Source of the DNA: Candidatus Colinaster equi
GTDB taxonomy: Bacteria > Bacillota > Clostridia > Lachnospirales > Lachnospiraceae
Length of the DNA stretch: 64,000 bases
Direction: 5' to 3'
NCBI GenBank assembly: GCA_018064425.1
Contig: JAGHVF010000020.1
Span: 59,611-123,610 of the forward strand
Positions 27,999 through 56,703 of the stretch are shown here, one piece after another. A program made the translations under genes and the position numbers. Numbering within the stretch: position 1 is the first letter of the stretch; each line of letters begins with the position of its first letter. The notes beneath the pieces were generated by a model, which was not told the origin of the DNA, did not search any database, and was given only the letters and a program-made list of their open reading frames with translations.

Positions 27999-28847
27999 TT
28001 AATATCCAAGTTCTTTCATATATACTTTAATAGCATCGTGCCAATCTGCAAATGTATATGCACCGACCATTCTCAACATATAATTGTCAAGTACTGAATG
28101 AAGTGGTCTCGGAGCCGGAGCTGCATATTCTTCGGTTGTTGTTCTCACAACCTTTGTATTCACGTCGGCAAGCTTAAATATCTCTTCGGCAAAATCAGCC
28201 CAACAACAGCTTCCTTCGCAAGTTGCATGATATGTACCGTAATTATGCGTAAAAATCAAACTGTCAATTGCTTTAACCAACTCAACCGTAGATGTAGGTG
28301 TACCGAATTGATCACCGACTACCGTAACAGTATCATGTGTCTCTGATAATTTAAGCATTGTCTTAACGAAGTTCTTACCATCACCATACAACCATGCGGT
28401 ACGCATAATGAAATATTTATCCGTAAACTGCTTAACCATATCTTCAGCCTGTGCTTTGGTAATACCATATACAGACTGTGGATTGGTTGCATCACTCTCA
28501 ACATACACGCCTTCATTTGTTCCGTCAAAAACATAATCCGTTGAAATATGAACAAGCTTAGCATTTGTCTCTTTTGCAGCAATTGCAAGATTACGCGGAC
28601 CAAGAGTATTAACCTTAAAAGCAATATCTTTATTGGTCTCACAGGCATCTACAGCCGTATATGCAGCGCAATTAACAATGGCATACGGTTCGTTTTTTTT
28701 GCAAAAAGCAACAATCGCTTCAACATCCGTTATATCTAGCTCATCCACATCGGTGTTGATAAGTTCTATGTCTGCGTTGTCCTTATAGAATCTGTTAATC
28801 TCTCTTCCCAACTGTCCGTTACAGCCGGTCACAATAATCTTTTTCAT
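27999..28847 (-). CDS. rfbD: dTDP-4-dehydrorhamnose reductase
   Basis: KKIIVTGCNGQLGREINRFY ... NCAAYTAVDACETNKDIAFKVN ... HISTDYVFDGT ... MRTAWLYG. Confidence 0.93.
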   Translation of the reverse strand: MKKIIVTGCNGQLGREINRFYKDNADIELINTDVDELDITDVEAIVAFCKKNEPYAIVNCAAYTAVDACETNKDIAFKVNTLGPRNLAIAAKETNAKLVHISTDYVFDGTNEGVYVESDATNPQSVYGITKAQAEDMVKQFTDKYFIMRTAWLYGDGKNFVKTMLKLSETHDTVTVVGDQFGTPTSTVELVKAIDSLIFTHNYGTYHATCEGSCCWADFAEEIFKLADVNTKVVRTTTEEYAAPAPRPLHSVLDNYMLRMVGAYTFADWHDAIKVYMKELGY

Positions 28848-28880: not shown

Positions 28881-31800
28881 CTACTTCAAATCTTCTACTG
28901 CAACAAGTGTAGCTCCGGTCACTTCGCGTCCCGTCACATTGTAATACTGTGTAGCTTGCACTTCATTATTGTTTGCTTCTTTTGAATCACCATTCTCGGA
29001 TGGTTTCTCATTCTTTTCGTCGTGAACATCCGTAATTTGCGTTTCTTTCTTTGATGCAGTCGTTGTCACATCCTTTACAGTTGATGTCTTTGCATTTGTG
29101 ACACCAGTGTCAGAAACCTCATTGGATTCACTGTCACCTACGCTGCCCATTGAGCCCATTCCACCACTCAAATCCGGCAAAATGATAAAGTTACGTGTTG
29201 TATATCCGCTATACTTTCCTTTTCCGATAAATGTAATCTTGGCAACACCAACTTTGACATTATCGGAATATGCTACAGTATAATCCTTACCTTCCTTAAG
29301 CGTCGTCTTATTGTAGGTAAGTTTGTAATTTGTTTGTCTAATGTTAGTACCGGTATATGTGCAATTGGACTTAATTCCACTTACCGCTACCTGCGACATT
29401 GATGTTCCTGCAATCTTAAAATGCATTGTGATTGTACCAATATATCTGTTAACACCTGTGAGAACAATATCTGCCGTTCCAATCTCTGTATTATTCATAT
29501 ATTGATATACTACACATATTTTATCGAGTTTATCACCATATACTTCCGGTTGTAATTTGTAGACATCATAGATTGCCTTATCTACAACCTCTGTTCCGTA
29601 TACAAGTTTTTTACTACCATCCGCTACATTTATCTTTGATAAAATGATCGGCTTTCCTGTATATGTCTCTTTATGGTTACTGTTAAAGCCTGTTGAACTG
29701 TTACCATACGAAATCGACAAATCATCTACAAATGTATTCTTTGATATATAGATATATGCACATGTCTCACCCACATAGTTACTATTATCAGCCGCTTCAA
29801 TCAATATCTGATATGTTCCTTGTTCAATATAATCCGAATCAGGATATGAATAAACATAATCGCGTCTATTCTTAAGCACAACATCTCCCCATTTAACAAC
29901 AGGCACAATCTTATGCTCTTTTCCGTTATATTTTACAATATAATCTTCGGTCACTATATCCGCATCCGACAAATCTTTTGGCGATATTGTGAATGTAGCC
30001 TGCGTATCCATACCTGAATATTTTGTGCCTTTTCCCTTAACAAATACAGTAGGCGCATCATCATCCAATCTGTCTGCCGCATTAATATTATTCATATATG
30101 ATAATGTATAATCTACACCACGTACCAGTTCTTCGTCACCACAGAATACCTTAACATCCGGATATATTCTTCTACCGGTATATCCATATGATCCCATTGG
30201 TTGAACGTATAATGCATCGGCAGCCACAGCTTTATAATATGCGTATGCTTTTACATCACCACTCGGTATGTAATCCTTAGTAACTCTGTCTCCCTTGCCA
30301 TCTTTCTCAGTATACCAACCGATAAATTTCTCGCCGCTTGCTTTATCGGCTTTTGTCCAAGGGTCCTTCTCAAATTCGATATCACCCAGTCTGCTTCCGT
30401 ATACTATATTGCCGGATGTATACTTGGTGCCGTCAGGCTCCAAAAATTGTGCCGTGTAATTGGAAACAGTTACATTACATTTACATACAAAATACTCATA
30501 TGTCTTACATGCACTATCTCTGTACAGCGGTCCTACCATCGCTGTTAATACACATGTACCTTCACCCTTTGCAATAACAAAATCATTCTCAACTACTGCT
30601 ACACTGTCATCATCGCTCTCCCATGACAAGGTCAAGGAGTCGGTAGTATCTATCGGATCGTAATTTATCCTGATTTTCTCTTTCTCACCTGTCTTTAACG
30701 ACACGTTTGTCGGTGATATAGCTACACTTTCAAGAGGTTTACAAACATATATCTTATACTCTTTCTTATACTCCCTGGCCGCTGCAAACTTGCTGGCTTT
30801 AACCTTAGCTGTTGCGGTTATCGTAGTCCAACCGCCCTCTTTAGCGGTAATAACCGCAGTCGTTCCGGTTCGTGCTGATGAGTTATACTCCTTATGAGTA
30901 AATGTTGCTACATTTTTATCCTTTATTGACCATACTACCTCATATGAATCGGTTGTATCATATGGGTAACTTCCTTCCTTCTCATCATTTGACGTAATAT
31001 AATTAATATTTATTTTCTGAGTATTCTGATATTTTATATCTCCAACTTTCTTTGACGTAGCAGAAGGAGTATTCTTCGTATATAATTTTATCTCATTTTT
31101 CTCATCAACATCCGAAACAGCCTTTATTATTGGGCTAAGAACAGTAACATTACATTTTAAAGTGATTGTTTTCTTTGTATCCGAATCAACTACCGATACA
31201 ACTATTTCTGTCTTTCCTGATGTAATTGCGGTTATCGAACCTGTCTTTTCAACAACCTTTGTTACAGCATGATCGGCATACTTTTGATTAGAATGATTAA
31301 GCTTAACCGTAACACCACTGCTGTTAAGCTTCATCGGACTACCGTTTTTGTACAATACCAAAGTTGCCGAGCTTCCCTTCTTCAAGGTTGCCGAAGTCAT
31401 ATTAAGATTATATGTATTACCCACATAAACAGGGATTTTGAAAACAAATCGTGAATTCAACGCACCTGCACCATTATATATCTTTCTAACAGAAAGTGCC
31501 TCTGTTGATGGTGCTTGTATATTTTGCATATACTGATGTGAATACATTGCGTTTACCGCCTCAGGATTCACATTGAATTTTTCAAGATATATTGTATCTT
31601 GCCCTTTTAAGACATATCCAGTTCCAATAGAACTTGCCCCGCCTTCAAGTGAAGCATATCTTGTATTCCAACCATTATCATAAGCTTTCTTTAAACCATT
31701 TCGTATTACTTCATCGTTAGAACTACCGGATGCTCCTATATTGAAATAATTGTAATACCCTCTATATTGTGGGTATTTTCCACCATATCCATCTCCTGAA

Positions 31801-33020
31801 ATCAATGGGCTAGTTCCTTTTCCTTGTTCTTGTAAAACCCTTGATGCTAAATGAGCAGGACTTAAGCGCTTTTCTTTTCCAATATTGTAAAATGCATAAG
31901 CATATGTTCTGGTATCTCCCGGAATTTTGCCAGACATAAACGTTGAATTTAACATTGATGCAACTGCTGATTCGCTATGGTATGAATCATTAAATGTTAA
32001 CTGTTCAAACATAAAAATATGTTCATCATCCAGCCAATTCAGTGGATCCATATAGTATTTAATACCTTCCTTTGAAGCTATTGCCCAACCAGACTGTGTG
32101 CCTCTTTCAGCATATTTACTACTTGCAGAAATCCAACTCTTATCGCCGTATTCGTTTTCTACCGCATCATTCAACGAAACATTCGTTTTCATAGCAACAA
32201 ATTTCCAATCAGGATGAGAATCTCTCATGCTCTTAAGATATGTTTGATATTCACTAGGAAATTCTCGTATATCTTCATCACCGCATACATTATCCATTTC
32301 GCTGCCGTTTCTGAAAAACAAAACAGCATACTCTTCTTCCCAGCCGATAAGCAATTCATCCGAATAGGCCAGGAAATGGCGCTTTGCATAACCTGTTTTC
32401 TCTTCATCACCATCGTAGAATACGATTTTATACCAAATCTCAGGGTAGTTTTTATTTAGATAATCATCCTCGGTAACGCTCTCAAGGTCTGCATCCATTC
32501 CGATAATTCTGACTGTATGAGCTGATTCAAGACTTGCTACCGTATCTGCATCATCGGAAGGTGCACTCTTTACATCATAACTGTCAGTCAAATATATTAA
32601 TGCATAAATATCCTTGCTCTCACATATCTTTGTAAGTGCCTCAGATGCAATCTTAAAAAGCTTATTATGGGCTACTTTAGCATCTGCTCCGGTCGCAAAT
32701 TTCGCATTTTTCGAAAGAAGCGGTATATCTTCTGCCTGTGTTGTTTCCTCGGTAGTTGTCTCCTCGGTGGTTAATTCTTCAGTAGTAGTCTCTTCTGTCA
32801 ACGTCTCATCTGTTGCAGATTCATCGGTTAACGATTCATCCTCAGTATCTGACTCTGTTACCGATTCGGTCTCTGACTCATCGGTCTCTTCGGTATTAAG
32901 CGATACATTGACAGCACCATTTGTTTCTGCAGCCATTACACCGCCCATATCGGATACAACCGGTGCCAATACCATACAAAATATTAAGATTATCGATAGA
33001 ATTCTTTTTATTCTTCTCAT
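28881..33020 (-). CDS. Secreted N-acetylglucosaminidase-like protein with Ig-like, Flg_new-like and YTG...KGTGxYSG-type repeats
   Basis: Signal peptide; Thr/Glu-rich spacer; AKRHFLAYSDE SH3-like region; AHLASRVLQEQGKGTSPLISGDGYGGKYPQYRGYYNYFNIGASG glucosaminidase region; C-terminal repeats. Confidence 0.8.
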   Translation of the reverse strand: MRRIKRILSIILIFCMVLAPVVSDMGGVMAAETNGAVNVSLNTEETDESETESVTESDTEDESLTDESATDETLTEETTTEELTTEETTTEETTQAEDIPLLSKNAKFATGADAKVAHNKLFKIASEALTKICESKDIYALIYLTDSYDVKSAPSDDADTVASLESAHTVRIIGMDADLESVTEDDYLNKNYPEIWYKIVFYDGDEEKTGYAKRHFLAYSDELLIGWEEEYAVLFFRNGSEMDNVCGDEDIREFPSEYQTYLKSMRDSHPDWKFVAMKTNVSLNDAVENEYGDKSWISASSKYAERGTQSGWAIASKEGIKYYMDPLNWLDDEHIFMFEQLTFNDSYHSESAVASMLNSTFMSGKIPGDTRTYAYAFYNIGKEKRLSPAHLASRVLQEQGKGTSPLISGDGYGGKYPQYRGYYNYFNIGASGSSNDEVIRNGLKKAYDNGWNTRYASLEGGASSIGTGYVLKGQDTIYLEKFNVNPEAVNAMYSHQYMQNIQAPSTEALSVRKIYNGAGALNSRFVFKIPVYVGNTYNLNMTSATLKKGSSATLVLYKNGSPMKLNSSGVTVKLNHSNQKYADHAVTKVVEKTGSITAITSGKTEIVVSVVDSDTKKTITLKCNVTVLSPIIKAVSDVDEKNEIKLYTKNTPSATSKKVGDIKYQNTQKININYITSNDEKEGSYPYDTTDSYEVVWSIKDKNVATFTHKEYNSSARTGTTAVITAKEGGWTTITATAKVKASKFAAAREYKKEYKIYVCKPLESVAISPTNVSLKTGEKEKIRINYDPIDTTDSLTLSWESDDDSVAVVENDFVIAKGEGTCVLTAMVGPLYRDSACKTYEYFVCKCNVTVSNYTAQFLEPDGTKYTSGNIVYGSRLGDIEFEKDPWTKADKASGEKFIGWYTEKDGKGDRVTKDYIPSGDVKAYAYYKAVAADALYVQPMGSYGYTGRRIYPDVKVFCGDEELVRGVDYTLSYMNNINAADRLDDDAPTVFVKGKGTKYSGMDTQATFTISPKDLSDADIVTEDYIVKYNGKEHKIVPVVKWGDVVLKNRRDYVYSYPDSDYIEQGTYQILIEAADNSNYVGETCAYIYISKNTFVDDLSISYGNSSTGFNSNHKETYTGKPIILSKINVADGSKKLVYGTEVVDKAIYDVYKLQPEVYGDKLDKICVVYQYMNNTEIGTADIVLTGVNRYIGTITMHFKIAGTSMSQVAVSGIKSNCTYTGTNIRQTNYKLTYNKTTLKEGKDYTVAYSDNVKVGVAKITFIGKGKYSGYTTRNFIILPDLSGGMGSMGSVGDSESNEVSDTGVTNAKTSTVKDVTTTASKKETQITDVHDEKNEKPSENGDSKEANNNEVQATQYYNVTGREVTGATLVAVEDLK

Positions 33021-33023
33021 AGA

Positions 33024-36000
33024 CTATCTCACCTTACTCAACGTAATATTATTGCCATTGACACATGTGTCATAAACTACACCTTCATTTGCAATCATAG
33101 CAACATCTATCCTGTTATTTGCAATTGTTGATGCCTTCTTGCTTGTCAAAATAAGTGTTCCTACCGGCGACTTATCCGGCAATAGTACTCTTAGTCTTTC
33201 ATCAGTCGATGTTCCGTCTCCAAATACAACTGCCTTGTTAACCGTAAGTTTATTGGCGATATTCTTTCTCTTCAGACACGTAGTCTTTCCTGACAATACA
33301 ATCTGATCAAACGTAGCATTACCTCTGTGTTCAAATAATACTCCGCCGTCGCCTTCACTTATCAGATTAAGATTGACAGCACTGACATTGCCTTCTGCAA
33401 TAAGTTCGTTGCCTGATGTAATCACAATATCTTTAAGTCCTGTAATTCCGCTAAGATACATAGGAGTATCAACAATAAGAGTACCCTTCTTTGTTTTACT
33501 TGTTATCTTATTCAGATAATCAAAGTATGTGTCAAAATTTGTTCTTCCCGATACCGTGAATTCAAAATTTCCAACTTCAATACTTACTTTGGTAAGATTG
33601 TTCGGCATAATAAACACATTTTTAAACTTAGTATTACACTTCAATGTAATATTAGGTTTGCATGTAATCATACCGTTATATATCGTTACTGAAGATGCTT
33701 TTGACGGCATAGGAGGCACAACATATGCGCCCTTTGAATTTGTTGTCGCTATATCAGCATCTTGTGTCAATACGATTACATATTTCTGAGTCTTGTCATT
33801 ATACTTTTCAATTCTGGCAACAGCATCTTCATAAGTAATACAATATTCATGAACAAATTCTTCTGATGACAAATCATCTACATTATCTGTTCCGATGACA
33901 AGTTCAGCCTCATACTGACTGACATCAACGTCATAACCGCCATCAACTATTCCACGCAGTTTTTTATATGTCACATAATCCCCGTTTTTAACAAATCCAA
34001 ACGGTTCAAACGTTTTTCCGGTATCAACCCACTTCTTAGTATCTTCATCATATGCATAAGCTTTTTTGACTACTCGCCTGCCCATATTCACACTATTAAT
34101 CTCACCATACTTATTGGTAGTCGCGTAAAACGGTGCAAACAAGGCAGCTGATATATATGGAGCCTTTATAAGCTGCATTCCTTCATAGAGTCGAGCCATA
34201 CCGCTTCCCGGATTGGTTCTGACATTGTTATAATACAATCCGACCTTTACTATTTCTTTTGTGTAATTAGATGCATTAGCTTGTAAAGCATCCAAATGTT
34301 CAAATGACAATCTATTCTTTATTTCAACCTGCGATACACCCTTTGCATTCTGCTTGCCTAACAAATTGACTGTAAGATTATCCTTTTCGGAGATATTGCT
34401 ATTGCCTGTAAGAACAAGTTTATTCAAACTGATTTTTCCGTTTGCTTTACGTGATACAGCATCGGCAGTACCCGCCATCAGTGTCGTTTTTCCAAGCCTT
34501 GCCGTGTCGCTAACAGATATATTTGCAGCTTCCACATATGTCATGGCATTAATTGCGTCTGCCTGGTTAGCATTTGTATTAAGATTCTTAACCGTAAGAT
34601 TCGAGTCTCCCAGATTAAGAATTGTGCCGAACGGCAAATTCAGCTCACCGACTCCCGATACGCCTTCAGCATTTTTAAATATTATTGTCTTACCGCCTAT
34701 ATCCCCGGTCACCCCACACGTATAGGTCTTAACATTCTTAACAGAATTAATGTAATCATGAACATTTGAGTTATTGTCAACGGACATCCTAAACACTCCC
34801 TTACCGTTTCCAACAACACCATATGTCGAACCTGGTTTTGCTCCACCATCTTGATCATAATATATGGATGTTATCATTCCTTTTATAGCAAGATTTTTAC
34901 CTGATGTCTGAATGGTTCCGTTTACTGCGACATATTCATCATCTACTTTTTTAACAGATTGAATGCTTACATTATCGAGTACAAGATCACATCCCGTTGA
35001 TATCTTAGTAGTTTCTGTAAACAGCGACGCTTTCTTACCATCCAAACGACCTGATTCAATTATTATTGTATGAGCCTTCTTTGGTAAAGCAAGCGATTTT
35101 GAAGGTGAATTCTCGCCAATATTGCCTAAAAGCCTGATTGTATAATCCGCCTGAGCATCATTGTTCGCATCTATTGCCTTTACAGCCTGTTCAAAACTAT
35201 TATATTGGGTAGTGGACGTAGCTGTTTTTACCTCTACCACAGGAGTTGCCTTGCAAATATATAATCCCTTATCTATTACAAAGAAATCATATCCGTCCGG
35301 CAATGAATACTCACCGTCTTTTCCTGTAATTGCAAGAGAACTTCCCATATTACCTCTGACATTTGCTATTTTCTTATATACAGGAAGATTATCAGCATCA
35401 TCGCAGCAATACAGTTCTTCTATTTGCGACTTTGTCGGCTGTATATAGTCTTCTGTTTCTTCATCCCAAATATATGGCATAAAGTTAATAGTCGCATATT
35501 TATCATATGTTACTAATCCGTTGTAATTTAACTGTGTAACAGACTTTGCAAATTCCTTCGCCGTTGTTCTGTATGCAATATCCAGCTTGCTACCCAAATT
35601 AGGACTGATAATTCCTACTTCGCCAATCGTGATTGGTTTGTTACAATCAATTTTTATATCGCCATAGAACTGCATACCATATATATCAATCGGTCCATTT
35701 TCACTTGTCAAACACATATTATCAGCAAGCGCTACAATTCCCTTCTTGGCTGTAAATCCGTTAACCTTAATAATGTCCATACCTGCACTGTCTTTTCCTG
35801 CACAAGTATCAAACCCTTCCTTGAAAGATATTATTGATGACATTGAAGACACTGGAGTAATTGAACTCATATACTCAATCTCATCATTCTTAACTTTTGC
35901 CTCGGTGAAAGAAATATTTCCAAAATTTATTCTCGTCTTAATATTCAATTTTCCCGAATAAACAACAACCGGCTTAGGCGTTTCCGGTTCATCTATAGAT

Positions 36001-39000
36001 TCCGCCATAATCATAATTTGCGAAGCTTTAGTAGGCAGTGCAAGTGATGATATTTTACTTGGGTCTGCTCCTGTGTAAAATGCTCTGTATGTCTTACCGT
36101 TTATCTCAGTAAGTACTCCTTCTGCATTATCTCGTATAGTAACAACATATACTGCATTTGTATTTGCAGCATTATCAATAGACCTGAAAGCATCATACAA
36201 TGTCTTGGCATAGTACTTCGATATTCCTCCGCTGCTCATATCTCCCTGAGTTATCATCACAGACATCTCGTCAAGATCGCCATTATATACATATCCGCTG
36301 ACATCTTTATATGATGAGTAATTGTCTTTTAAAACAATTTTTCCGTTATCAAATTTTGAAAGAGGTGCAGCACACACATTGGCAGCATTAGCCTTCTTAC
36401 CAAGAATCAATGGCTTATCTCTGTAATCTGATGCAGATGTGTTAATTCCATATGTATAATCAGTTGTCTTTGCCTTATTAACAAGCTTCACAACAACAGG
36501 AGTTGTTACATCTCCTGTTACTGTTATTGTCGGTACATTCTTCTTTAAGCTCTTATTATTCACTTCGTATGAAGCAATATAGCAACCCTTGTTTTCCTTT
36601 TGCTCAGATTCAATCGTCTTAACATTTGCGGCTGCGATTGCTATCCAATGAGAATCACCGTTTAATGCCAACGAACCCAATGTTGTAGTATTCCAGGTTG
36701 ACATTTCAGATGATGAATTCATTACAAGGTTAGGTATATTTGCTTTTCCACACAATGCAGTACTGTTTACAAGAGTAATCTTAGCATCTGACGACTTGGC
36801 TGAAGCTGCGGAAGTAATATTCATCGCAGTCTTTACACCCCTTGCTGTAATACCCTCCATATTAATATTGTCAAATTCAACATCGCCGTATGCTGTCACA
36901 TTTCCGTTTGAAGCGACTTTGGTTTTTCCGTCACTTCTTCCTTTGATATACAGCTTACTGTATAATCTGCTCTTCTTTGCATTTGGCAATTTGATTGCAC
37001 TGTATTTTGCACTGTCTGTAACAACAGGGTCTTTACTAGTCGCCTCACCCATATCAATTACATAATATGCATTGCTCATCTTTAATGTTTCTATTTCGGT
37101 TGATGCCTGACCCATATCCAGATAGCGCATCTCATATATTGGGCCAACTGCAATATCATCGTATACCTTCAAATTGACAGAGTTATTGTTCTCTGACTGT
37201 AACTTGTTTCCGTTAAAAATTGCTCCGGCAGCTTTCAACGGATAATAAACACTGTAACCTCCAGCATTTATCCCAACTGAGCTTAAATCAATCTTTCCTT
37301 TTACCTTTATCAATTCTTTGCCTGAGATTGCAACAACTCCGTTCTTACTAACAAGCTCATAATTGCTAACAGTCTTTTTCGCCGGTAATTGGAGATTTAT
37401 CTGTGCATTCTCCAATGCATAATTTTGAACGCCTGTTCCTGTTATGTTAACCAGCCCGACGCACCACTCTATCGTAAGTCTCTTATTTATTTCTGATCCG
37501 GCACCCTTGATTTCATTTGCAGTCAGTTTCTTATTTGTCTGTGTACATCTTAATGTTTTTACGTTATCAGAATCTGTTCCGGTTACACATTTTACATCTA
37601 CGGCACCGTTTACCTCGGTTGTATCGGCAATTTGCAACTCACTGATTTTACTGATACCGCCAACCTTCAATTCTCTCGAACTCATGACAACCTTGCCGTT
37701 ATCTTTGTTCTTACCCGTTACTGCACCGATTGCTTTTCCTGTAGCCTTACAGTCAACAAATTCAACATTATATACACCGGTATTAATTGCGAGATTAGCT
37801 TTTGAGGCACACAAATCAACGTTATGGAATACAACATCTCCCGCTAACGTTATGGCCGAATTATAATTCAATTTTCTAGTGCTAACCTCTCCGTATTCGT
37901 ATGAATTGAAGAATACTTTCTTCTTTGATAATGTTAACTTTTCAACAGGTGTATCATGCAGCAAAGTAACTGTAAATGTATTCTGTTCACTGCTGTTTAT
38001 TGCTTTTACGGCATCGGCAATTGTTGGGAAATATCCGATGACATTCTCTCTGCCTATTGCCTTTAATTTATCTTTGGTAACTTCGCTTTCACTTGCCGTT
38101 ACAACTACTGCAAGCTTATTAACAGCATTGTATCTTATCGCATTGCTAACCTTCTGCATATAGTACCAATTAGTAGGGTTACTATACATGCTATCAAGAT
38201 CTTCATTGACAATAATTGCACGAGGTGCACCGACTCTTCCGTCTGAATATACAATTTTTGTATTACTCTCATCTACGCAGAAAAGCGATGCAACTGCATT
38301 TTTTGCGGTAAGTACTGTAGTAGTATGGGTATAATCTTTACCATCCTTATAGCTGTTATCCTTAACGCCCAAAATGTATTCATCATTCTGTCTTGTTCCA
38401 ATAGGGTAGCCGACTTTTACCTTTATTAAGTCACTATGTTTACCGGATGTATTATTCTCAGGTAGATTATTCTGTACATACCCCGAAATATTAAGGTATG
38501 GAATTGCACCGGATTTATCGTCCGTTACTCTTGTAAAAAGTAATACATTTGCTGAATTCTTGTACAAAGTACCCTTAATATTAAATATTTTATCAACATA
38601 AATATTGGTTGTGTTTCCGGTCAAAGCAACATTGGTTGCATTAAGATTACCGTTAACCGTTAAGTTGGAATCTTCAAGATCCAAATAACTGATTGTGGAA
38701 TTTGCGGCATATTTTCCTTTTCCATTGGCAATTGCCGTCTTACTCTCCGCCACATAGATGTCAGTATATGCAGCCTTGAGAGTTGTTACATTGAATACAG
38801 GGGCTGCGAAATTATTTGCCGACTTATTCTCATATGCAATAACTTCCAGTCTTGAACGCTCGCCTATTTCTCCGCTGTCAATATCTTCAATAGATAACTC
38901 TACGAAATTCTGTATTGAACCGTTAATACTTACTTCAATAAAATCATCACTATTATCTACAGGAGATACATCAACATTGTTTTCTGCAGTCTGTGTAGGT

Positions 39001-41702
39001 CTTGCTTCAAAATCACCCTCGAATCTGATATTTGCCTTTTTCTTTCCATCCAAAACAACCGCTGTGTTACACGTTACATCATCAAGTGTAAGTGTACCGG
39101 CGGAAATTGCAAAAGTATTTACGGCATATTGCTTGGTAGCAACCGGTTGATTCTTATTCTTATCCGTTATTACAAAATTGACATTTCTGACAACTGTGTC
39201 ACAAGTGAATGTTATACCTGCTGTTGTGTAAACAGTTACATTATTAGGTGTATTAATATTGCTGTTATTTTCTTCAAGGTCACCTGTTCCGTCCTCAACG
39301 CCCTCGATAGTAAGAGATTTCACATATGCAGCTTTGGGCATTGTAATTGGCGCAGCTACAACCTCTTCCATTCCTCCCTTATCGGAAGAAACATTATTCA
39401 ACAATTTGATTGTATAATCTCTTTTGTATGCAAGTGCATTAATCTCTGCTATAGCATCCTGAATGTTGGTAAATTCGGATATAACCTTTTCAGAGTTTTC
39501 ATAAAAGTCATCATAGATAAGATATACACAGAAATTCTCATCTGTAGACAATCCAATCTGACCGGACCTCTTTGTTAACGGTCTGTTAACCGTTCCAACA
39601 TATCCTACTATTCTGTTAGCATTAATGTTTCCGGCCATATTGGCGTTCTTTGCATTAATAAACGGAACAAATCCGACAGCGATGTCATCATCACTTGTAG
39701 CCGCAATAGGTTTACCGCTTGCGTCATACAGCTCAACATTTAAGAATGCATTGTCAAAATCATCCGAATACAAATCTTCCACAAGTGTTGATTGGGGAAC
39801 TGCTTTTGATATCTTCCCATTCTTATCTTTTGTTACTGTTGCAGCTAAACCAAGCTTTGGATACTTTAATGGCGCATCAGAAGTACCATCTGACAAAATA
39901 TATCCGAAAGTGTTCTTTCCAAAACACTTTGCCTCAACCTCTTCACCTAATTCAAGAAAGGATACACTTATATCCTTAGGGAACAAATATTTACCGCTCT
40001 TAAGATACAATTCCGATTCCGCATTTGTGCTCTTGCCTGTAACCTTACCCCAGGATGTGTTCTCATTTAACGAAACATTATCCAGTGTTAATTCATAATT
40101 CTGGAGCGAAACAGCAATCTCACCTGATGTAGCGGCAAATTTAATATCTTTAAATATCGTATTACAGCCAATTTTTATATTCTTGGCAATAGTGATGGTA
40201 TCACCCGCTGTTCCATCCGCATCTAAGCCGGATATTCCGGTTATTTTCAGACTCTTTGCCTTGGTTGGGAATAGCACATCTTTTGATCCGACATTGATAT
40301 CCAAAGGCTCAAGACGTTCGTCAAGATATGTCCAAATATCAATCTCATACTCGCCTTCGCTATCTCCGCGATTATTTATCTCTACGAACGCAGCATTAAG
40401 GCTGTTAAACATTCCTATTTTTTCCGCTTTATTATTCTTTACACAATACAAAACGACACACGCGTCATCTACATTCTTTGGATCATAAGTAACAAGAGTT
40501 GTTGCTACTTTTTTAAGCGGCATAAAATAGCCCGAATCATCAAATGTTACATACATTGTTGCAGGATCAACTTTAGCTCCCGTAGCAACAACAATATCTG
40601 TCTTTTTAATATCACCTGCGCTCTGTCTCTTTATATTAATTGCGAATTCACTGATCTTTCCGTGCGAAATATCACCTTCAAACGCCTTTTCCGTAGAATA
40701 TACATAAGTATCTCCTACATCTTCTCTAGCATAGATTTTTTTTCTGTTTTCCGAATCGTTTTCTGCATTTACCGTACCGGTGATAGTAAATGTTCCTTCG
40801 GCATTGTACTCAATGCTATTATTCTCACTATCGGACACAATATCCCTAACCGCGATGTTACCTGCACACTTTATAGAGGTATCGGTCATAGAAAGCTTAC
40901 CAAGGCCGTTAATATTACCTCCGACGTTTACATTCAACGTTTCACCGCAATCTGACTTAAAAATGAGATCTCCGTTCTTTCCTGTTACGGATAAAAGCTT
41001 GTTCTCATTATCCAAAGATCTCTCTTTGATTATGGTAAGACTCTTGCCATTTAAAGCCAAAGCACTGTTCTCACCGTTCAATGTAATATCTTTCAAAGTG
41101 ATATTTGTACCTAAAGAAACATTATTGGAAAATGATATTGTGACCGGTGCAGCGACACTACCACTCATTCCCTCATAAGTCACTTCTTTTGCATTTTTAG
41201 GAAAAACAAGATTCTGAGCATCTATATCTCCGTCAATTGTTACAACATAAGACATCGATGTATTGTTAATAACATCGATATATGTTGCTACATCTGCAAA
41301 TGAATCATATGTAATAAGACCGGAAAGACCATCATCATCACCAACATATACATTCATACGTCCGCTAGGGACTGCTACGGGAATCATATCCTCGAGCGAC
41401 TCCGTTATAGTCTCTGTCTCGGTTTCAGAAGAGGTTGCTGTCTCTGTTTGTACTTCTTCGCTTTCAGTTACTGTTTCATCAATCTCAGTCTCGGTCTCAG
41501 TTTCCGAAGTAACAGTCTCGATAACAGATGATGTCTCCTGCTGTGAATAGCTTTCATCTTCACTTTCCGTATTCAGTTCAACATCGTCAACGGTTGACAT
41601 GGCATTGCTGTCATAAGTCTGTTCCATGGCATATGCGCCGGAATAATTACCTGCAATCATTGTGACTGCCAAAACCATTGCTAAAGCTCTTCTTAATCTC
41701 AT
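33024..41702 (-). CDS. Giant exported repeat-module protein (~2892 aa) of unknown function
   Basis: GGAGAGGAT upstream of ATG 41702; signal peptide MRLRRALAMVLAVTMIAGNYSGAYA; Thr/Glu/Ser-rich spacer; seven recurring modules. Confidence 0.8.
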   Translation of the reverse strand: MRLRRALAMVLAVTMIAGNYSGAYAMEQTYDSNAMSTVDDVELNTESEDESYSQQETSSVIETVTSETETETEIDETVTESEEVQTETATSSETETETITESLEDMIPVAVPSGRMNVYVGDDDGLSGLITYDSFADVATYIDVINNTSMSYVVTIDGDIDAQNLVFPKNAKEVTYEGMSGSVAAPVTISFSNNVSLGTNITLKDITLNGENSALALNGKSLTIIKERSLDNENKLLSVTGKNGDLIFKSDCGETLNVNVGGNINGLGKLSMTDTSIKCAGNIAVRDIVSDSENNSIEYNAEGTFTITGTVNAENDSENRKKIYAREDVGDTYVYSTEKAFEGDISHGKISEFAINIKRQSAGDIKKTDIVVATGAKVDPATMYVTFDDSGYFMPLKKVATTLVTYDPKNVDDACVVLYCVKNNKAEKIGMFNSLNAAFVEINNRGDSEGEYEIDIWTYLDERLEPLDINVGSKDVLFPTKAKSLKITGISGLDADGTAGDTITIAKNIKIGCNTIFKDIKFAATSGEIAVSLQNYELTLDNVSLNENTSWGKVTGKSTNAESELYLKSGKYLFPKDISVSFLELGEEVEAKCFGKNTFGYILSDGTSDAPLKYPKLGLAATVTKDKNGKISKAVPQSTLVEDLYSDDFDNAFLNVELYDASGKPIAATSDDDIAVGFVPFINAKNANMAGNINANRIVGYVGTVNRPLTKRSGQIGLSTDENFCVYLIYDDFYENSEKVISEFTNIQDAIAEINALAYKRDYTIKLLNNVSSDKGGMEEVVAAPITMPKAAYVKSLTIEGVEDGTGDLEENNSNINTPNNVTVYTTAGITFTCDTVVRNVNFVITDKNKNQPVATKQYAVNTFAISAGTLTLDDVTCNTAVVLDGKKKANIRFEGDFEARPTQTAENNVDVSPVDNSDDFIEVSINGSIQNFVELSIEDIDSGEIGERSRLEVIAYENKSANNFAAPVFNVTTLKAAYTDIYVAESKTAIANGKGKYAANSTISYLDLEDSNLTVNGNLNATNVALTGNTTNIYVDKIFNIKGTLYKNSANVLLFTRVTDDKSGAIPYLNISGYVQNNLPENNTSGKHSDLIKVKVGYPIGTRQNDEYILGVKDNSYKDGKDYTHTTTVLTAKNAVASLFCVDESNTKIVYSDGRVGAPRAIIVNEDLDSMYSNPTNWYYMQKVSNAIRYNAVNKLAVVVTASESEVTKDKLKAIGRENVIGYFPTIADAVKAINSSEQNTFTVTLLHDTPVEKLTLSKKKVFFNSYEYGEVSTRKLNYNSAITLAGDVVFHNVDLCASKANLAINTGVYNVEFVDCKATGKAIGAVTGKNKDNGKVVMSSRELKVGGISKISELQIADTTEVNGAVDVKCVTGTDSDNVKTLRCTQTNKKLTANEIKGAGSEINKRLTIEWCVGLVNITGTGVQNYALENAQINLQLPAKKTVSNYELVSKNGVVAISGKELIKVKGKIDLSSVGINAGGYSVYYPLKAAGAIFNGNKLQSENNNSVNLKVYDDIAVGPIYEMRYLDMGQASTEIETLKMSNAYYVIDMGEATSKDPVVTDSAKYSAIKLPNAKKSRLYSKLYIKGRSDGKTKVASNGNVTAYGDVEFDNINMEGITARGVKTAMNITSAASAKSSDAKITLVNSTALCGKANIPNLVMNSSSEMSTWNTTTLGSLALNGDSHWIAIAAANVKTIESEQKENKGCYIASYEVNNKSLKKNVPTITVTGDVTTPVVVKLVNKAKTTDYTYGINTSASDYRDKPLILGKKANAANVCAAPLSKFDNGKIVLKDNYSSYKDVSGYVYNGDLDEMSVMITQGDMSSGGISKYYAKTLYDAFRSIDNAANTNAVYVVTIRDNAEGVLTEINGKTYRAFYTGADPSKISSLALPTKASQIMIMAESIDEPETPKPVVVYSGKLNIKTRINFGNISFTEAKVKNDEIEYMSSITPVSSMSSIISFKEGFDTCAGKDSAGMDIIKVNGFTAKKGIVALADNMCLTSENGPIDIYGMQFYGDIKIDCNKPITIGEVGIISPNLGSKLDIAYRTTAKEFAKSVTQLNYNGLVTYDKYATINFMPYIWDEETEDYIQPTKSQIEELYCCDDADNLPVYKKIANVRGNMGSSLAITGKDGEYSLPDGYDFFVIDKGLYICKATPVVEVKTATSTTQYNSFEQAVKAIDANNDAQADYTIRLLGNIGENSPSKSLALPKKAHTIIIESGRLDGKKASLFTETTKISTGCDLVLDNVSIQSVKKVDDEYVAVNGTIQTSGKNLAIKGMITSIYYDQDGGAKPGSTYGVVGNGKGVFRMSVDNNSNVHDYINSVKNVKTYTCGVTGDIGGKTIIFKNAEGVSGVGELNLPFGTILNLGDSNLTVKNLNTNANQADAINAMTYVEAANISVSDTARLGKTTLMAGTADAVSRKANGKISLNKLVLTGNSNISEKDNLTVNLLGKQNAKGVSQVEIKNRLSFEHLDALQANASNYTKEIVKVGLYYNNVRTNPGSGMARLYEGMQLIKAPYISAALFAPFYATTNKYGEINSVNMGRRVVKKAYAYDEDTKKWVDTGKTFEPFGFVKNGDYVTYKKLRGIVDGGYDVDVSQYEAELVIGTDNVDDLSSEEFVHEYCITYEDAVARIEKYNDKTQKYVIVLTQDADIATTNSKGAYVVPPMPSKASSVTIYNGMITCKPNITLKCNTKFKNVFIMPNNLTKVSIEVGNFEFTVSGRTNFDTYFDYLNKITSKTKKGTLIVDTPMYLSGITGLKDIVITSGNELIAEGNVSAVNLNLISEGDGGVLFEHRGNATFDQIVLSGKTTCLKRKNIANKLTVNKAVVFGDGTSTDERLRVLLPDKSPVGTLILTSKKASTIANNRIDVAMIANEGVVYDTCVNGNNITLSKVR

Positions 41703-41808
41703 ATCCTCTCCAACCTTCATTACACACTAAATGCGCGACGTTCAAATTACGCCACGCATTCACTTTCAATATAGAATCTTACAAATTGTATCGCTAATTC
41801 CAATCATC

Positions 41809-43578
41809 TTACTCATTCTCAGGCATCTCAATGCAAATGTGTACATCCTTAAGTTGCTTCTCGTCAACGCCGGATGGAGCACCCATCATAACATCCTGTG
41901 CTGTCTTATTCATAGGGAACGGAATAATCTCTCTGATACTCTCTTCTCCCGCAATGAGCATTACCATACGGTCAACACCCGGTGCAATACCCGCATGTGG
42001 CGGTGCACCATAACAAAAGGCGTTATACATAGCCGGGAATTTGGCTTTAACATCTTCTTCGCCAAGTCCGACAAGCTTAAATGCCTCAACCATAATCTCC
42101 GGATCGTGATTACGTACCGCGCCGGATGAAAGTTCAACACCGTTAACAACAAGATCATACTGATATGCAAGTATATCAAGCGGATTCTCGTTCTTAAGTG
42201 CATCCATACCGCCCTGCGGCATTGAGAATGGATTATGGCAAAATTCCAACTCTCCGCTTTCTTCACCTATCTCATACATAGGGAAGTCAACTATCCAACA
42301 GAACTCATAACACTCTTTGTTCATATGTCCTTCAGCGTTTGCGCCAAGAAGTTTTCTAAGCACGCCTGCTGTCTTAAGTGCATCAAGTTTCTTACCTGCT
42401 GCCAAACCTACAAAATCGCCCGGTTTCAAATCAAGTGCTTCAATTACTGCATCCTTACGCTCCTGAAGGAACTTAGAAATTCCTCCGACAAGTTCACCGT
42501 TCTCATCCAACTTGAACCAACAAGCCTTATTAGCTGTCGCCACTTCGACATCAGCCATTATCTTGTCGATTACCTTACGTGTTGCCGCAAAATTGGTTAC
42601 TTTTACAGCCTCAATGCTATTACCCTCTGCATCAAACGGACCAAATCCGCATCCTGCAAAAGTCGCGGTAACATCTTTAAGTGTAAGATCAATACGAAGA
42701 TCCGGCTTATCCGAACCGTATGTCTCCATAGCATCTCTATAAGATATACGTGTAAAAGGAGCTTTGCTTGCAGTCTTATAAGTTCCGTATTTTGCAAAAA
42801 TCGGAGGAAGAACATCTTCAATAACAGCAAAAACATCTTCCTGTGATGCAAATGCCATCTCCATATCAAGCTGATAGAACTCGCCCGGAGATCTGTCCGC
42901 TCTGGCATCCTCATCTCTAAAACATGGTGCCACCTGGAAATATCTGTCAAATCCGGATGTCATAAGCAACTGCTTAAACTGCTGCGGTGCCTGTGGCAAA
43001 GCGTAGAATTTACCCGGATGAAGTCTTGAAGGAACAAGATAATCTCTTGCGCCCTCAGGTGAACTACATGTAAGAATCGGTGTTGTAATTTCTAAGAAAT
43101 CATGATTAATCATAGCAGCTCTGAGTTCTGCTACTATTTTACTTCTAAGTACAATCTTTTCTTTAACCGCCGGATTACGAAGGTCAAGATATCTGTACTT
43201 AAGTCTTGTTGCTTCATCTGCCTCTTTTGATCTGTTTATTTCGAAAGGAAGTTCATTATATCTACATTTTCCAAGTACAACTATTTCCTCCGGTACAACT
43301 TCAATATCACCTGTCGCAAGCGTTGCATTCTTACTTGAACGTTCTCTGACAGTACCTGTTACAGATAAAGTCGACTCGTTATTTACTCCATTCAATTTCT
43401 CCATCATTTCTTCTGTCTCAACAACTACCTGAGTTGTTCCATAGAAATCACGAAGAATCAGAAAACCAAGGTTCTTGCTGACTTTACGCATATTGTCATA
43501 AAAACCTACCAATGTTACTTTCTGACCTACATGCTCCATACGAAGTTCGTTGCATGTATGTGTTCTTGACTGTGTCAT
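41809..43578 (-). CDS. aspS: Aspartyl-tRNA synthetase
   Basis: TRLKYRYLDLRNPAVKEKIVLRSKIVAELR ... FYALPQAPQQFKQLLMTSGFDRYFQVAPCFRDEDARADRSPGEFYQLDMEMAF; start 43578 with AAAGGATG upstream. Confidence 0.97.
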   Translation of the reverse strand: MTQSRTHTCNELRMEHVGQKVTLVGFYDNMRKVSKNLGFLILRDFYGTTQVVVETEEMMEKLNGVNNESTLSVTGTVRERSSKNATLATGDIEVVPEEIVVLGKCRYNELPFEINRSKEADEATRLKYRYLDLRNPAVKEKIVLRSKIVAELRAAMINHDFLEITTPILTCSSPEGARDYLVPSRLHPGKFYALPQAPQQFKQLLMTSGFDRYFQVAPCFRDEDARADRSPGEFYQLDMEMAFASQEDVFAVIEDVLPPIFAKYGTYKTASKAPFTRISYRDAMETYGSDKPDLRIDLTLKDVTATFAGCGFGPFDAEGNSIEAVKVTNFAATRKVIDKIMADVEVATANKACWFKLDENGELVGGISKFLQERKDAVIEALDLKPGDFVGLAAGKKLDALKTAGVLRKLLGANAEGHMNKECYEFCWIVDFPMYEIGEESGELEFCHNPFSMPQGGMDALKNENPLDILAYQYDLVVNGVELSSGAVRNHDPEIMVEAFKLVGLGEEDVKAKFPAMYNAFCYGAPPHAGIAPGVDRMVMLIAGEESIREIIPFPMNKTAQDVMMGAPSGVDEKQLKDVHICIEMPENE

Positions 43579-43724
43579 TTTAATACATCCTTTCAATATA
43601 TCTTTGCAGGCATTACGCCGTATTCTCAACCAAACTATTATACATCACATATATATATTGTACCAACATAATACACACTATACAACATATATGTCGGTTG
43701 ATTTGCTCACAAAATGAATACCAT

Positions 43725-50263: not shown

Positions 50264-50815
50264 TCACTTATTCCTTAAAGACTTTGGCAAAAACATATCT
50301 ATTTCTTCGTCTGTGAATGTATAATCTTTTTTTACTTTGAGCGATTCAGATGCCATATCACAAGCTTTTTGTGTTGTTGCCGGAGCATCTACATACAATT
50401 TATTGAGCCTTTCCATTATGCCTTCATAAATTGCCTTATTCTCATCTAATTCGTTTTTTTCATATTTTATATTGGCTATCACATTTAATAATTCATTTCG
50501 TATTCCTATGAACTGATTTGCTGCAGCTTTATTCCGTACTTCCAATGTTCTTAAATCAAAACTTTTAAAATATGCTGTAATTCCCAATGTTATAAACGAT
50601 GCTACTGCCGTTAGTACCTGGGCGATAATATTCGTGTAAAAACAGATTGTAATTATACCGCAAGATGTAAGTGCGGCCACGATAATATTAATTGTCTCTA
50701 AGCATTTATACTCCTTGGCATATATTTCTGCCTGTTTCTCATGTGTTTTGTGAGTCCATACCACACTTGCATAATTTTGGCGAACAACATCTAATAATAT
50801 TTTTTGCTTTTCCAT
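50264..50815 (-). CDS. SLATT domain (two-TM putative effector) protein
   Basis: 183 aa; two TM helices INIIVAALTSCGIITICFY / IAQVLTAVASFITLGITAYF followed by helical LEVRNKAAANQFIGIRNELLNVI; adjacent to a CD-NTase. Confidence 0.8.
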   Translation of the reverse strand: MEKQKILLDVVRQNYASVVWTHKTHEKQAEIYAKEYKCLETINIIVAALTSCGIITICFYTNIIAQVLTAVASFITLGITAYFKSFDLRTLEVRNKAAANQFIGIRNELLNVIANIKYEKNELDENKAIYEGIMERLNKLYVDAPATTQKACDMASESLKVKKDYTFTDEEIDMFLPKSLRNK

Positions 50816-50832
50816 AATATCTCCTTACATAA

Positions 50833-51654
50833 TTAAACCATGTGTCTTAAAACTTTACCCAAAGTATCCCACCCTTTATTCGAATCAATAGTAGAATTAC
50901 TTCCAGGTGCACGAAGTGTTGGCTTTATAATACCATTAAGTGACATTTCGTTATACTTACGATACAGCATTTCTTCATACGTTTCATTTCCTGCTGTGTG
51001 TTGCTCATTTTCTCTTCTAAAATGCCAACCTCCAATGTTTAACGATACAAAAGTATCTATGAGAATACCCGATAATTCATAGCTTGAATAATTAGTGTCT
51101 CTTATATATCTAATGTGTTTGCAGGTATCATATAACAGTCCATTGCTTTTTTCATTTATTCCCTTCATGGCGTCTTGCTCTGCTTTAGGATTTGTACTCA
51201 ACCAGTTTCCACCCATATGTGTATTAGGATATTTATATGTTCCATCCCATCCAAAAACGGATGCATTTTTAAATGCCGGTAATATTTCAAACTTCATATC
51301 ATCCGAAAATTTAACTACAACCACTTGACCATCGCCTTTCACAATTGTTGTTGGATAAGTTTCTAAGATAGCATCCTTTACAGCTTGAAGAAGCCTGGAC
51401 TGACCATTTCCACTGCCATTTGAAAAACGATCATATTCATCTTCCGGCAGTTCAATAAGAACGTCTAAATCACTTGTCTTTATTGCTGTCCCTCTACCAT
51501 ATGACCCAACATAAAAGCTATGAGCCGTGTCACTCGAAATATTCCAAAACACACTATTAACAGCTTTTGTTATCCTCTTATATCGTGTTGATATCAATGA
51601 TCTTGTATCCGCGTCTATAACGTGAACATTTTGTTTTACGATTGAACTCATCAT
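50833..51654 (-). CDS. CD-NTase / SMODS-type nucleotidyltransferase
   Basis: GSYGRGTAIKTSDLDVLIELP (GSxxRGT...DxD) with downstream acidic MKFEILPAF; AAAGGAGGAATAT upstream. Confidence 0.88.
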   Translation of the reverse strand: MMSSIVKQNVHVIDADTRSLISTRYKRITKAVNSVFWNISSDTAHSFYVGSYGRGTAIKTSDLDVLIELPEDEYDRFSNGSGNGQSRLLQAVKDAILETYPTTIVKGDGQVVVVKFSDDMKFEILPAFKNASVFGWDGTYKYPNTHMGGNWLSTNPKAEQDAMKGINEKSNGLLYDTCKHIRYIRDTNYSSYELSGILIDTFVSLNIGGWHFRRENEQHTAGNETYEEMLYRKYNEMSLNGIIKPTLRAPGSNSTIDSNKGWDTLGKVLRHMV

Positions 51655-55021: not shown

Positions 55022-56581
55022 CTAATTATCTGGTTCTATCACTTCAGCATTTTGGCTAATGTCAGATATAAATGATCTCATATCCATAATTGATTGCCTT
55101 AATTCAGCTTTTGTATATCTCGTATTTAAGTGATTCTCTGGATGATGTATTTGATGTCGGATATACTCTGTTAAAGTTTTCTGCTCATCTCGAACACTAC
55201 CGTTAGATAACTGACGATGATATAGTCTTGTAGGTTTTCCTTGCATATACTCATTTCGCCAGCCCTGATATTCTATATATGCGTACAGTTCATCGTGATA
55301 CTCTTCTGTCACATCTCCAAATGCCAAATAATTAACTTCATTTAGAGAGGGGTATCTTAATTGTCCTTCCTCAACTCCATGTACCGCTTTACCAAATTCT
55401 TCATCAATTATAACTCGTAGATTCAAATATTCTAACTGCTTTACCATCACGCTACTGTGGGTTGTGATAATCACCTGAACATTGTCCGTACTTGCCAGAG
55501 ACTTTATAGCTTCTATAAGCTTAATCTGATTATCACCGTGCTGCGATGTTTCGGGTTCTTCTATTGCATATATAACGCCCTTGTTATCTCCTTCCTCAAA
55601 TCTACGTTCTACTTCACCTCTAAAAAAATTAAGTAATATAAGTCGTTTTACACCACTTCCGCGCTTGTTTATTGGAATATCTTCATCTCCAGAAATTGAA
55701 ACTCCCTTAAATACGTCTTGCCATTTTAAAGACTGAGCCGAAGGAATTACTGGATTTAAGCTACTTGCAACAGACGGATCCATCTCCTGTAACTTATTCA
55801 AAGTTCTGGTAGCAACATCCTGTAGCTTTTGATGAACCTCATTGGCTATCTCTTCCAATGAAGCTTGAAGCCTATCATCCTTCAGAATCTGTTTTACAGC
55901 CTCTTTTAACGGATCTTGTACTTCATTATCATCATCACTATTTTTCCTATCTGATTGGAATAAAGAGTATACCGGTAAATATGTTGCTATCTTATCCCAA
56001 ATCTTTTTAGCATCTTCCTTGGTAACGTCTATTTCAATCTCATCCAACGATAGATCATCTGAAAAATGCTCCCAGATTGCGGATCTAACAATAGAATTTA
56101 CTGTTTGGTTATCACAAGTAATATTATTGTCTTGGATAATTTTCTTTAAATCGGAGTTTTTCTTAAGTAATAAATCACTACATCCCGGATTTGTAGGATG
56201 CAAAGCCTTTATATAAACCTTTTGTGCTCCTCCATTTTTATATTTTTTTATTATCTCCAAATCCCCATCCGCATTTAGCATATACTCCCTTGCTAATGAT
56301 GTTTCAACAGACGAATCTATAATGATTTCATCTGGCAATTCTGAAAACACCACCGATATAATCGTTTCTTGGTCATCTTCCCTTGCTGCAAAAATATTAA
56401 CATCCGTCTTATCAATTTTTACAACTCCCTTACCTTCATTAAAGAAAATATCCAGCGCCTCAAGGATTGAAGATTTACCTACATCATTTTTCCCAACAAA
56501 TGCTGTTAAGTTATCAAACCCAACAATAGTTTCTCCCTTGTATCCCCTGAAATTTTTTATTTTCAATGACTTAATCTTCAA
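55022..56581 (-). CDS. AAA/ABC-type ATPase (OLD-like N-terminus) with a non-TOPRIM C-terminal region
   Basis: LKIKSLKIKNFRGYKGETIVGFDNLTAFVGKNDVGKSSILEALDIFF (Walker A); VIYAIEEPETSQH; TTHSS; C-terminal YIRHQIHHPENHLNTRYT. Candidate TTG start at 56581 after GGAGGAAACGG. Confidence 0.8.
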   Translation of the reverse strand: MKIKSLKIKNFRGYKGETIVGFDNLTAFVGKNDVGKSSILEALDIFFNEGKGVVKIDKTDVNIFAAREDDQETIISVVFSELPDEIIIDSSVETSLAREYMLNADGDLEIIKKYKNGGAQKVYIKALHPTNPGCSDLLLKKNSDLKKIIQDNNITCDNQTVNSIVRSAIWEHFSDDLSLDEIEIDVTKEDAKKIWDKIATYLPVYSLFQSDRKNSDDDNEVQDPLKEAVKQILKDDRLQASLEEIANEVHQKLQDVATRTLNKLQEMDPSVASSLNPVIPSAQSLKWQDVFKGVSISGDEDIPINKRGSGVKRLILLNFFRGEVERRFEEGDNKGVIYAIEEPETSQHGDNQIKLIEAIKSLASTDNVQVIITTHSSVMVKQLEYLNLRVIIDEEFGKAVHGVEEGQLRYPSLNEVNYLAFGDVTEEYHDELYAYIEYQGWRNEYMQGKPTRLYHRQLSNGSVRDEQKTLTEYIRHQIHHPENHLNTRYTKAELRQSIMDMRSFISDISQNAEVIEPDN

Positions 56582-56703
56582 ACCGTTTCCTCCAACAATA
56601 AACACTTTTCCTGTATTTAATGGACAGAATGACCACCTAAAATGCATGTCTTCTTGACATATCTACAGTTAGATATGAACTTCATTTCATTACCCAGCCA
56701 TTC

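Follow-up and report, generated by a model that had tools for sequence, protein, structure and literature searches.

A giant, probably exported protein of eight divergent modules in Lachnospiraceae with features of a beta-helix surface protein

The question raised by this locus is what a giant modular protein that matches no known family is built of, and what it may do for the cell. Long surface proteins govern the attachment of gut bacteria to mucus, to feed particles and to each other, and they evolve too fast for family libraries, which miss them. The stretch of DNA analyzed here (64,000 nucleotides of contig JAGHVF010000020.1 from Candidatus Colinaster equi, called the window in the following) contains such a candidate, for which a preliminary description had proposed export, about seven divergent modules and no recognized family.

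Reading frame and modules of the giant protein

The frame encoding the giant protein occupies positions 33024-41720 of the minus strand and is uninterrupted (2,898 aa from 2,898 codons without a stop), while a start at 41702 gives 2,892 aa. This internal position is likely to be the better start, because AAGGTTGGAGAGGAT is found just upstream and a standard signal peptide follows right after it, so that the choice of 41702 over the longest frame, already made in the preliminary description, is borne out. The Shine-Dalgarno-like AAGGTTGGAGAGG is located immediately 5′ of the start codon, and the predicted signal peptide (MRLRRALAMVLAVTMIAG) comprises aa 7-31 (MRLRRALAMVLAVTMIAGNYSGAYA; 41628..41702, minus strand), with the relatives described below beginning with a like signal type. 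As far as sequence can tell, the signal peptide also supports the proposed export. Between it and the modules lies an acidic linker of about 100 residues, in which Glu, Thr and Ser abound (aa 32-130; 41331..41627, minus strand), and a similar linker is present in the relatives.

From residue ~131 to its end the protein consists of modules throughout, eight in all. The recurring motif on which the earlier count was based is present at all seven positions quoted for it (41270, 40370, 39420, 37990, 36160, 35160 and 33790) and each of these modules is real, but an eighth one at ~37145-36231 had been missed. A BLAST comparison of the protein with itself yielded no match at E<=1, which means that the modules are indeed very divergent, and profiles were used for this reason instead. 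When a profile was generated from six of the named modules, these six were masked and the seventh was sought (single-sequence E), the left-out module was recovered in six of seven cases at E 2e-9 to 4e-6, with the module near 37990 (M4) being weak (E 0.13). The additional module (M5) appeared near aa 1535 in all seven of these runs, with a best E of 7.9e-5. After relatives had been added to the profile all eight modules matched clearly, which is partly so by construction as the window modules seed this profile.

From one module start to the next there are 300, 312, 481, 302, 305, 335 and 454 residues, and 272 remain at the end; the usual spacing is ~300-335 aa, and two long modules reach ~455-480 aa. 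All on the minus strand, M1 (aa 131-430; 40431..41330), M2 (aa 431-742; 39495..40430), the long M3 (aa 743-1223; 38052..39494) and M6 (aa 1831-2165; 35226..36230) were assigned with the cap profile, M4 (aa 1224-1525; 37146..38051) with the larger profile and M5 (aa 1526-1830; 36231..37145) with the leave-one-out profiles. The assignment of the long M7 (aa 2166-2619; 33864..35225) draws on same-rank matches and an AlphaFold model, and that of M8, the last module of the protein (aa 2620-2898; 33027..33863), additionally on a scan for anchors. A module-closing stretch was found in 40 of 52 modules compared to 13 of 1,040 shuffles, a count that has to be read bearing in mind that the closing-stretch profile is partly self-trained.

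Sequence searches of the giant protein against Pfam, NCBIfam and PDB returned nothing of note, and no HMM of a characterized family in Pfam or NCBIfam matched across its length, an outcome to which the preliminary description had tied its proposal. When 15 modules from several genomes were compared to Pfam, only scattered sub-threshold matches were obtained, among them AIDA, Bactofilin and Pectate_lyase_5, which in these relatives are weak matches to beta-helix families. For Pectate_lyase_5 (PF20585, cut-off 24.3 bits) the best score was 16.7 bits in a relative and none was obtained for the window protein, while the weak scores in two relatives corresponded to E 0.0085 (N-terminus of P0007) and E 0.0068 (one of the 15 modules); on this evidence the giant does not appear to be a member of this family. 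A match to the T4 gp5 spike (E 0.027) vanished under a wider profile and was discarded. Fibrillar adhesins have been defined by a known adhesive and a known stalk domain within one long protein (PMC8286594). Neither kind of domain was found in the giant with Pfam, and a definition by known domains would miss a novel type.

Relatives and the order of the modules

Protein-level searches matched only the window itself among 60 related genomes and found no relative in the genome collection or in plasmids. Relatives were detected solely with the module profile, for which other genomes matched at E down to 1.8e-16; as profile matches, these are far beyond chance. The first module profile matched in seven and a wider one in nine of 397 Lachnospiraceae genomes, the window's own among them, whereas across the phylum the wider profile matched in one of 399 genomes, namely that of the window alone. 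Within these collections the module family is restricted to the Lachnospiraceae lineage, with members mostly from ruminant-gut Lachnospiraceae.

Six giants of 1,858-4,799 aa, encoded in five other genomes, agree with the window protein in their modules and in the order of these. They are from Lachnospiraceae bacterium cow4.13 (3,485 aa), goat-rectum RGIG3179 (4,163 aa), Zagget2 (3,912 aa), buffalo-colon RGIG7478 (4,799 aa) and Roseburia sp. RGIG7456, in which two giants are encoded in tandem (locus L075, 4694-10270 and 10526-22066; 1,858 and 3,846 aa). The statement that no recognized family is present holds with respect to Pfam, NCBIfam and PDB, but the protein is no orphan, having collinear relatives in five other Lachnospiraceae genomes. 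Both Roseburia giants end after M7 and the shorter one comprises M3-M7 only, which suggests that the gene was duplicated and end modules were lost. Among the further profile matches are a smaller member with four modules (G386), two modules terminating proteins of 2.2-2.4 thousand residues (G275) and a natural stand-alone M7-type exported protein of 488 aa (G122; locus L066, 7550-9016, minus strand), which lends itself to structural studies.

The window protein and the cow4.13 giant are joined by one BLAST alignment over 2,600 residues (25% identity, E 6e-85). For a comparison module by module, ranks were counted from the C-terminus, except that the numbering of the two Roseburia proteins, which end at M7, was fixed after their matches had been seen. 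In 268 of 290 comparisons (40 of 44 for the window protein alone) the best cross-protein match had the same rank, where ~36 of 290 would be expected from eight equivalent ranks. Over all proteins, this was the case for M1 in 30/30, M2 in 24/30, M3 in 42/42, M5 in 42/42, M6 in 39/42, M7 in 42/42 and M8 in 20/20 comparisons; M4 of the window matches M4 of two relatives, and M7 is the best conserved module. A tree of 52 module starts groups by rank as well, with nine rank changes (minimum seven) vs. 37 on average after label shuffling. Since just 88 columns were available, its individual branches are mostly weakly supported; the M5 modules form one supported group and several window modules have long branches.

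The same-rank matches and the grouping in the tree indicate that the architecture is old and fixed. On these comparisons the eight-module set predates the separation of the genera, and its order has been kept while the sequences drifted to ~25% identity; as a scale for this divergence, the AspS proteins of the compared genomes are 42-87% identical to that of the window. A recent tandem duplication is ruled out by the same observations. An origin of the frame as an assembly artefact, or its being a decaying or untranslated frame with repeat-like sequence, might be considered, as the giant was found in only one of 20 genomes of its own genus, the other 19 lacking it, and as several of its modules lie on the long branches mentioned above. 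This explanation is nevertheless hardly credible in view of 2,898 codons without a stop, an intact ribosome-binding site and signal peptide, and the conservation of modules and order in reading frames of 3.5-4.8 thousand residues in other genera.

The usual stalk of a long protein consists of interchangeable, near-identical repeats. The giant is unlike it, since its modules are too divergent for a self-BLAST and each rank is kept across genera. As the sequence proper to each rank is older than the split of the genera and has been retained, the modules probably do different jobs, and the conservation of ranks raises the testable question of what the job of each position is.

Predicted fold, attachment and genomic surroundings

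Two AlphaFold runs were performed, each on a seven-row orthologue alignment, for M7-M8 (mean pLDDT 76.0, pTM 0.59) and for M4-M6 (mean pLDDT 69.8, pTM 0.63). All five modelled modules are predicted to be beta-rich, as had been anticipated, with a single N-terminal cap helix each (11-21 and 465-475 in the first model; 11-20 for M4, 313-323 for M5 and 618-628 for M6 in the second) followed mostly by beta-strands. Conserved cap helices at the N-terminus are recognized in beta-helix proteins (PMC11532034), and such a helix is present in the models of these five modules. In Foldseek searches against the PDB, right-handed beta-helices ranked first for both models, with no match below E 0.001 and TM-scores of at most ~0.28. 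The top matches included UpaB (prob 0.92), Ag43, EspC, Hbp, the CBA120 and Sf6 tailspikes and Lam55A, with the autotransporter passengers at E of at least 0.005, and the best structural match in the viral library was an autotransporter-type protein. Because of the E-values and the low TM-scores, a right-handed beta-helix as fold of the modules is supported by the models but not proven. The same applies to the beta-helix-like body that had been proposed after each motif, for which cap helix, strands and Foldseek ranking speak and against which stand the lack of a match below E 0.001 and the depth of only seven rows in the alignments used for modelling.

PL6, GH87 and laminarinase-type enzymes were among the weaker Foldseek matches. 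They share the beta-helix class, and plant polysaccharide is abundant in the gut habitat, which would fit a multi-domain polysaccharide lyase or glycosidase with a pectin-lyase-like fold and one active site per module. However, invariance across seven M7 orthologues is confined to A, Y, P, K, G, V, L, N, F and M, none of Asp, Glu, Arg and His being unchanged in this catalytic-residue test of M7, and no enzyme family was matched either. An enzymatic role of the modules was rejected on the residue conservation of M7 and appears very improbable to us. A ligand-binding site could not be identified in the giant.

With regard to attachment, a scan of the 80 C-terminal residues of ten proteins detected no LPXTG-like sortase motif, and none of the ten has a strongly hydrophobic C-terminal segment; the giant itself contains no membrane anchor and no wall-binding domain of Pfam. 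The search for S-layer and wall-binding domains in Pfam and NCBIfam likewise yielded no SLH, CWB2 or other known domain of this kind, and no C-terminal beta-barrel translocator family of autotransporters (type V secretion) was found; the giant ends with M8. In the absence of a recognized wall anchor, simple release of the protein from the cell is conceivable.

Upstream of the giant lies aspS (41809-43629). In two genus-mates (G012 and G019) aspS is found near a relative of P0002 with no giant in between, and other genera carry the giant elsewhere; an ancestral site at aspS is therefore not supported. P0002 itself (28881..33020, minus strand) begins three bases past the stop of the giant, and co-transcription of the two genes is probable. 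It encodes an exported glucosaminidase of GH73 type, which also has Ig-like and C-terminal repeats and matches the bifunctional autolysin 6fxo over aa 311-531 (phmmer, E 7.8e-12). The N-terminal half of P0002 is conserved in most genus-mates, and many exported proteins of the genus share the repeats of its C-terminal part. Of six loci, four (the window, L072, L073 and L074) have an exported protein with such repeats next to the giant, carrying a glucosaminidase, transglutaminase-like or CAP domain. As the repeats are missing from the cow4.13 genome, which contains a giant, P0002-type proteins are not a required partner, and none adjoins the Roseburia giants.

Thirty-three bases beyond P0002, an RmlD-like dTDP-4-dehydrorhamnose reductase (rmlD; 27999..28847, minus strand; Pfam RmlD_sub_bind 3.7e-91) is the first of a series of polysaccharide genes extending to ~10 kb, with sugar-nucleotide and glycosyltransferase genes, EpsG and a sugar transferase following it. 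CpsB, Wzz and a ParA-like ATPase precede the two Roseburia giants, i.e., polysaccharide genes adjoin the giant in two loci, and a gene for an MBOAT acyltransferase is close to the giant in cow4.13 (L071). An association with surface-polysaccharide genes is suggestive only. On the other side of aspS the window encodes a second giant exported protein of 1,851 aa (P0003; 43901-49456, minus strand), for which PKD or Ig-like signals are weak and no family passes the cut-off. Further along are a SLATT_4 membrane effector beside a SMODS nucleotidyltransferase, constituting a two-gene CBASS-like defense pair (50264-51654, minus strand), and an AAA_15/OLD-like ATPase near a WYL regulator (55022-56647, minus strand), possibly a further defense gene.

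The adjoining exopolysaccharide genes, the strict module order, which fits an ordered assembly, and the lack of an anchor of known type would also be compatible with a secreted structural protein of a biofilm matrix or S-layer-like coat, in which modules in ordered contact would serve for building more than for ligand binding. Its presence in nine of 397 genomes of the family and one of 20 of the genus is unlike a core coat protein and SLH and CWB2 domains are absent, so that we consider such a role rather unlikely. The reading that we favor, with reasonable though limited confidence, is a surface-displayed beta-helix fibre of eight end-to-end modules, most likely binding glycans. Such a protein would be exported by the general Sec route, as shown by its signal sequence, and each module would fold alone, starting with an amphipathic cap helix at its N-terminus, continuing as a beta-helix and closing with a beta-rich segment that has a pattern like LTAPKA...YKSGxxIxYG. 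Stacked roughly coaxially, the modules might form a rod tens of nanometres long, presumably displayed at the surface and probably attached non-covalently, with the wall or the surface polysaccharide made by the adjoining genes as possible partners. Fold class and neighbors point to glycan binding in the gut, be it to host mucin, plant fiber or neighbor cells, with precedents in the Limosilactobacillus reuteri SRRP and the Apilactobacillus kunkeei giants; for the former, glycan binding by beta-solenoid domains has been discussed (PMC12863079, PMC9210967). The ranks probably differ in their job at fixed places, e.g., by distinct glycan-binding faces or specific module-module contacts. It is a speculative extension of the fibre, and one we doubt, that it represents an ordered hetero-module filament held by the neighboring polysaccharide in place of a known anchor, in which the jobs of the modules (length setting, docking, glycan specificities) are non-exchangeable.

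Comparison with known systems

The giant belongs to a real sequence family that is absent from the searched libraries and probably of the beta-helix surface protein kind, with a function that we infer; the adhesin or scaffold role suggested in the preliminary description is likewise a proposal. For this family of proteins of 1.9-4.8 thousand residues, which lacks a Pfam or NCBIfam model, the module profile provides a means to detect and annotate such proteins.

Like Giant1-4 of A. kunkeei and the SRRP of L. reuteri, the window protein is a very large exported protein of a Gram-positive gut bacterium, with domains modelled as beta-solenoid-like, and the attachment of the A. kunkeei giants to the cell seems to be loose, too (PMC12863079, PMC9210967). 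These giants differ in having a single N-terminal beta-solenoid, a long helical-repeat rod and a C-terminal SH3b-like domain, and the L. reuteri SRRP has one N-terminal beta-solenoid followed by a serine-rich stalk (PMC12863079, PMC9210967), whereas the window giant consists of eight modules throughout, without stalk or known anchor. Its sequence matched no PDB chain, SRRP included. Right-handed beta-helical domains with helix caps, as modelled for the window giant, also occur in the adhesin-like proteins of the gut microbes Methanobrevibacter and Methanosphaera, which are likewise long and located at the surface and are compared here by description only, but most of them contain membrane-anchoring helices and archaeal Big domains, both of which the window giant lacks (PMC11532034). 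Autotransporter passengers such as UpaB, Ag43, Hbp and pertactin, which provided the best Foldseek matches, resemble its proposed form as long right-handed beta-helices at the surface; in contrast to them, the window giant has no outer-membrane barrel, comes from a Gram-positive family and is built of eight separately capped units instead of one. The proposed fold class is a known one; what is new is the sequence family, together with the constant order of its eight modules.
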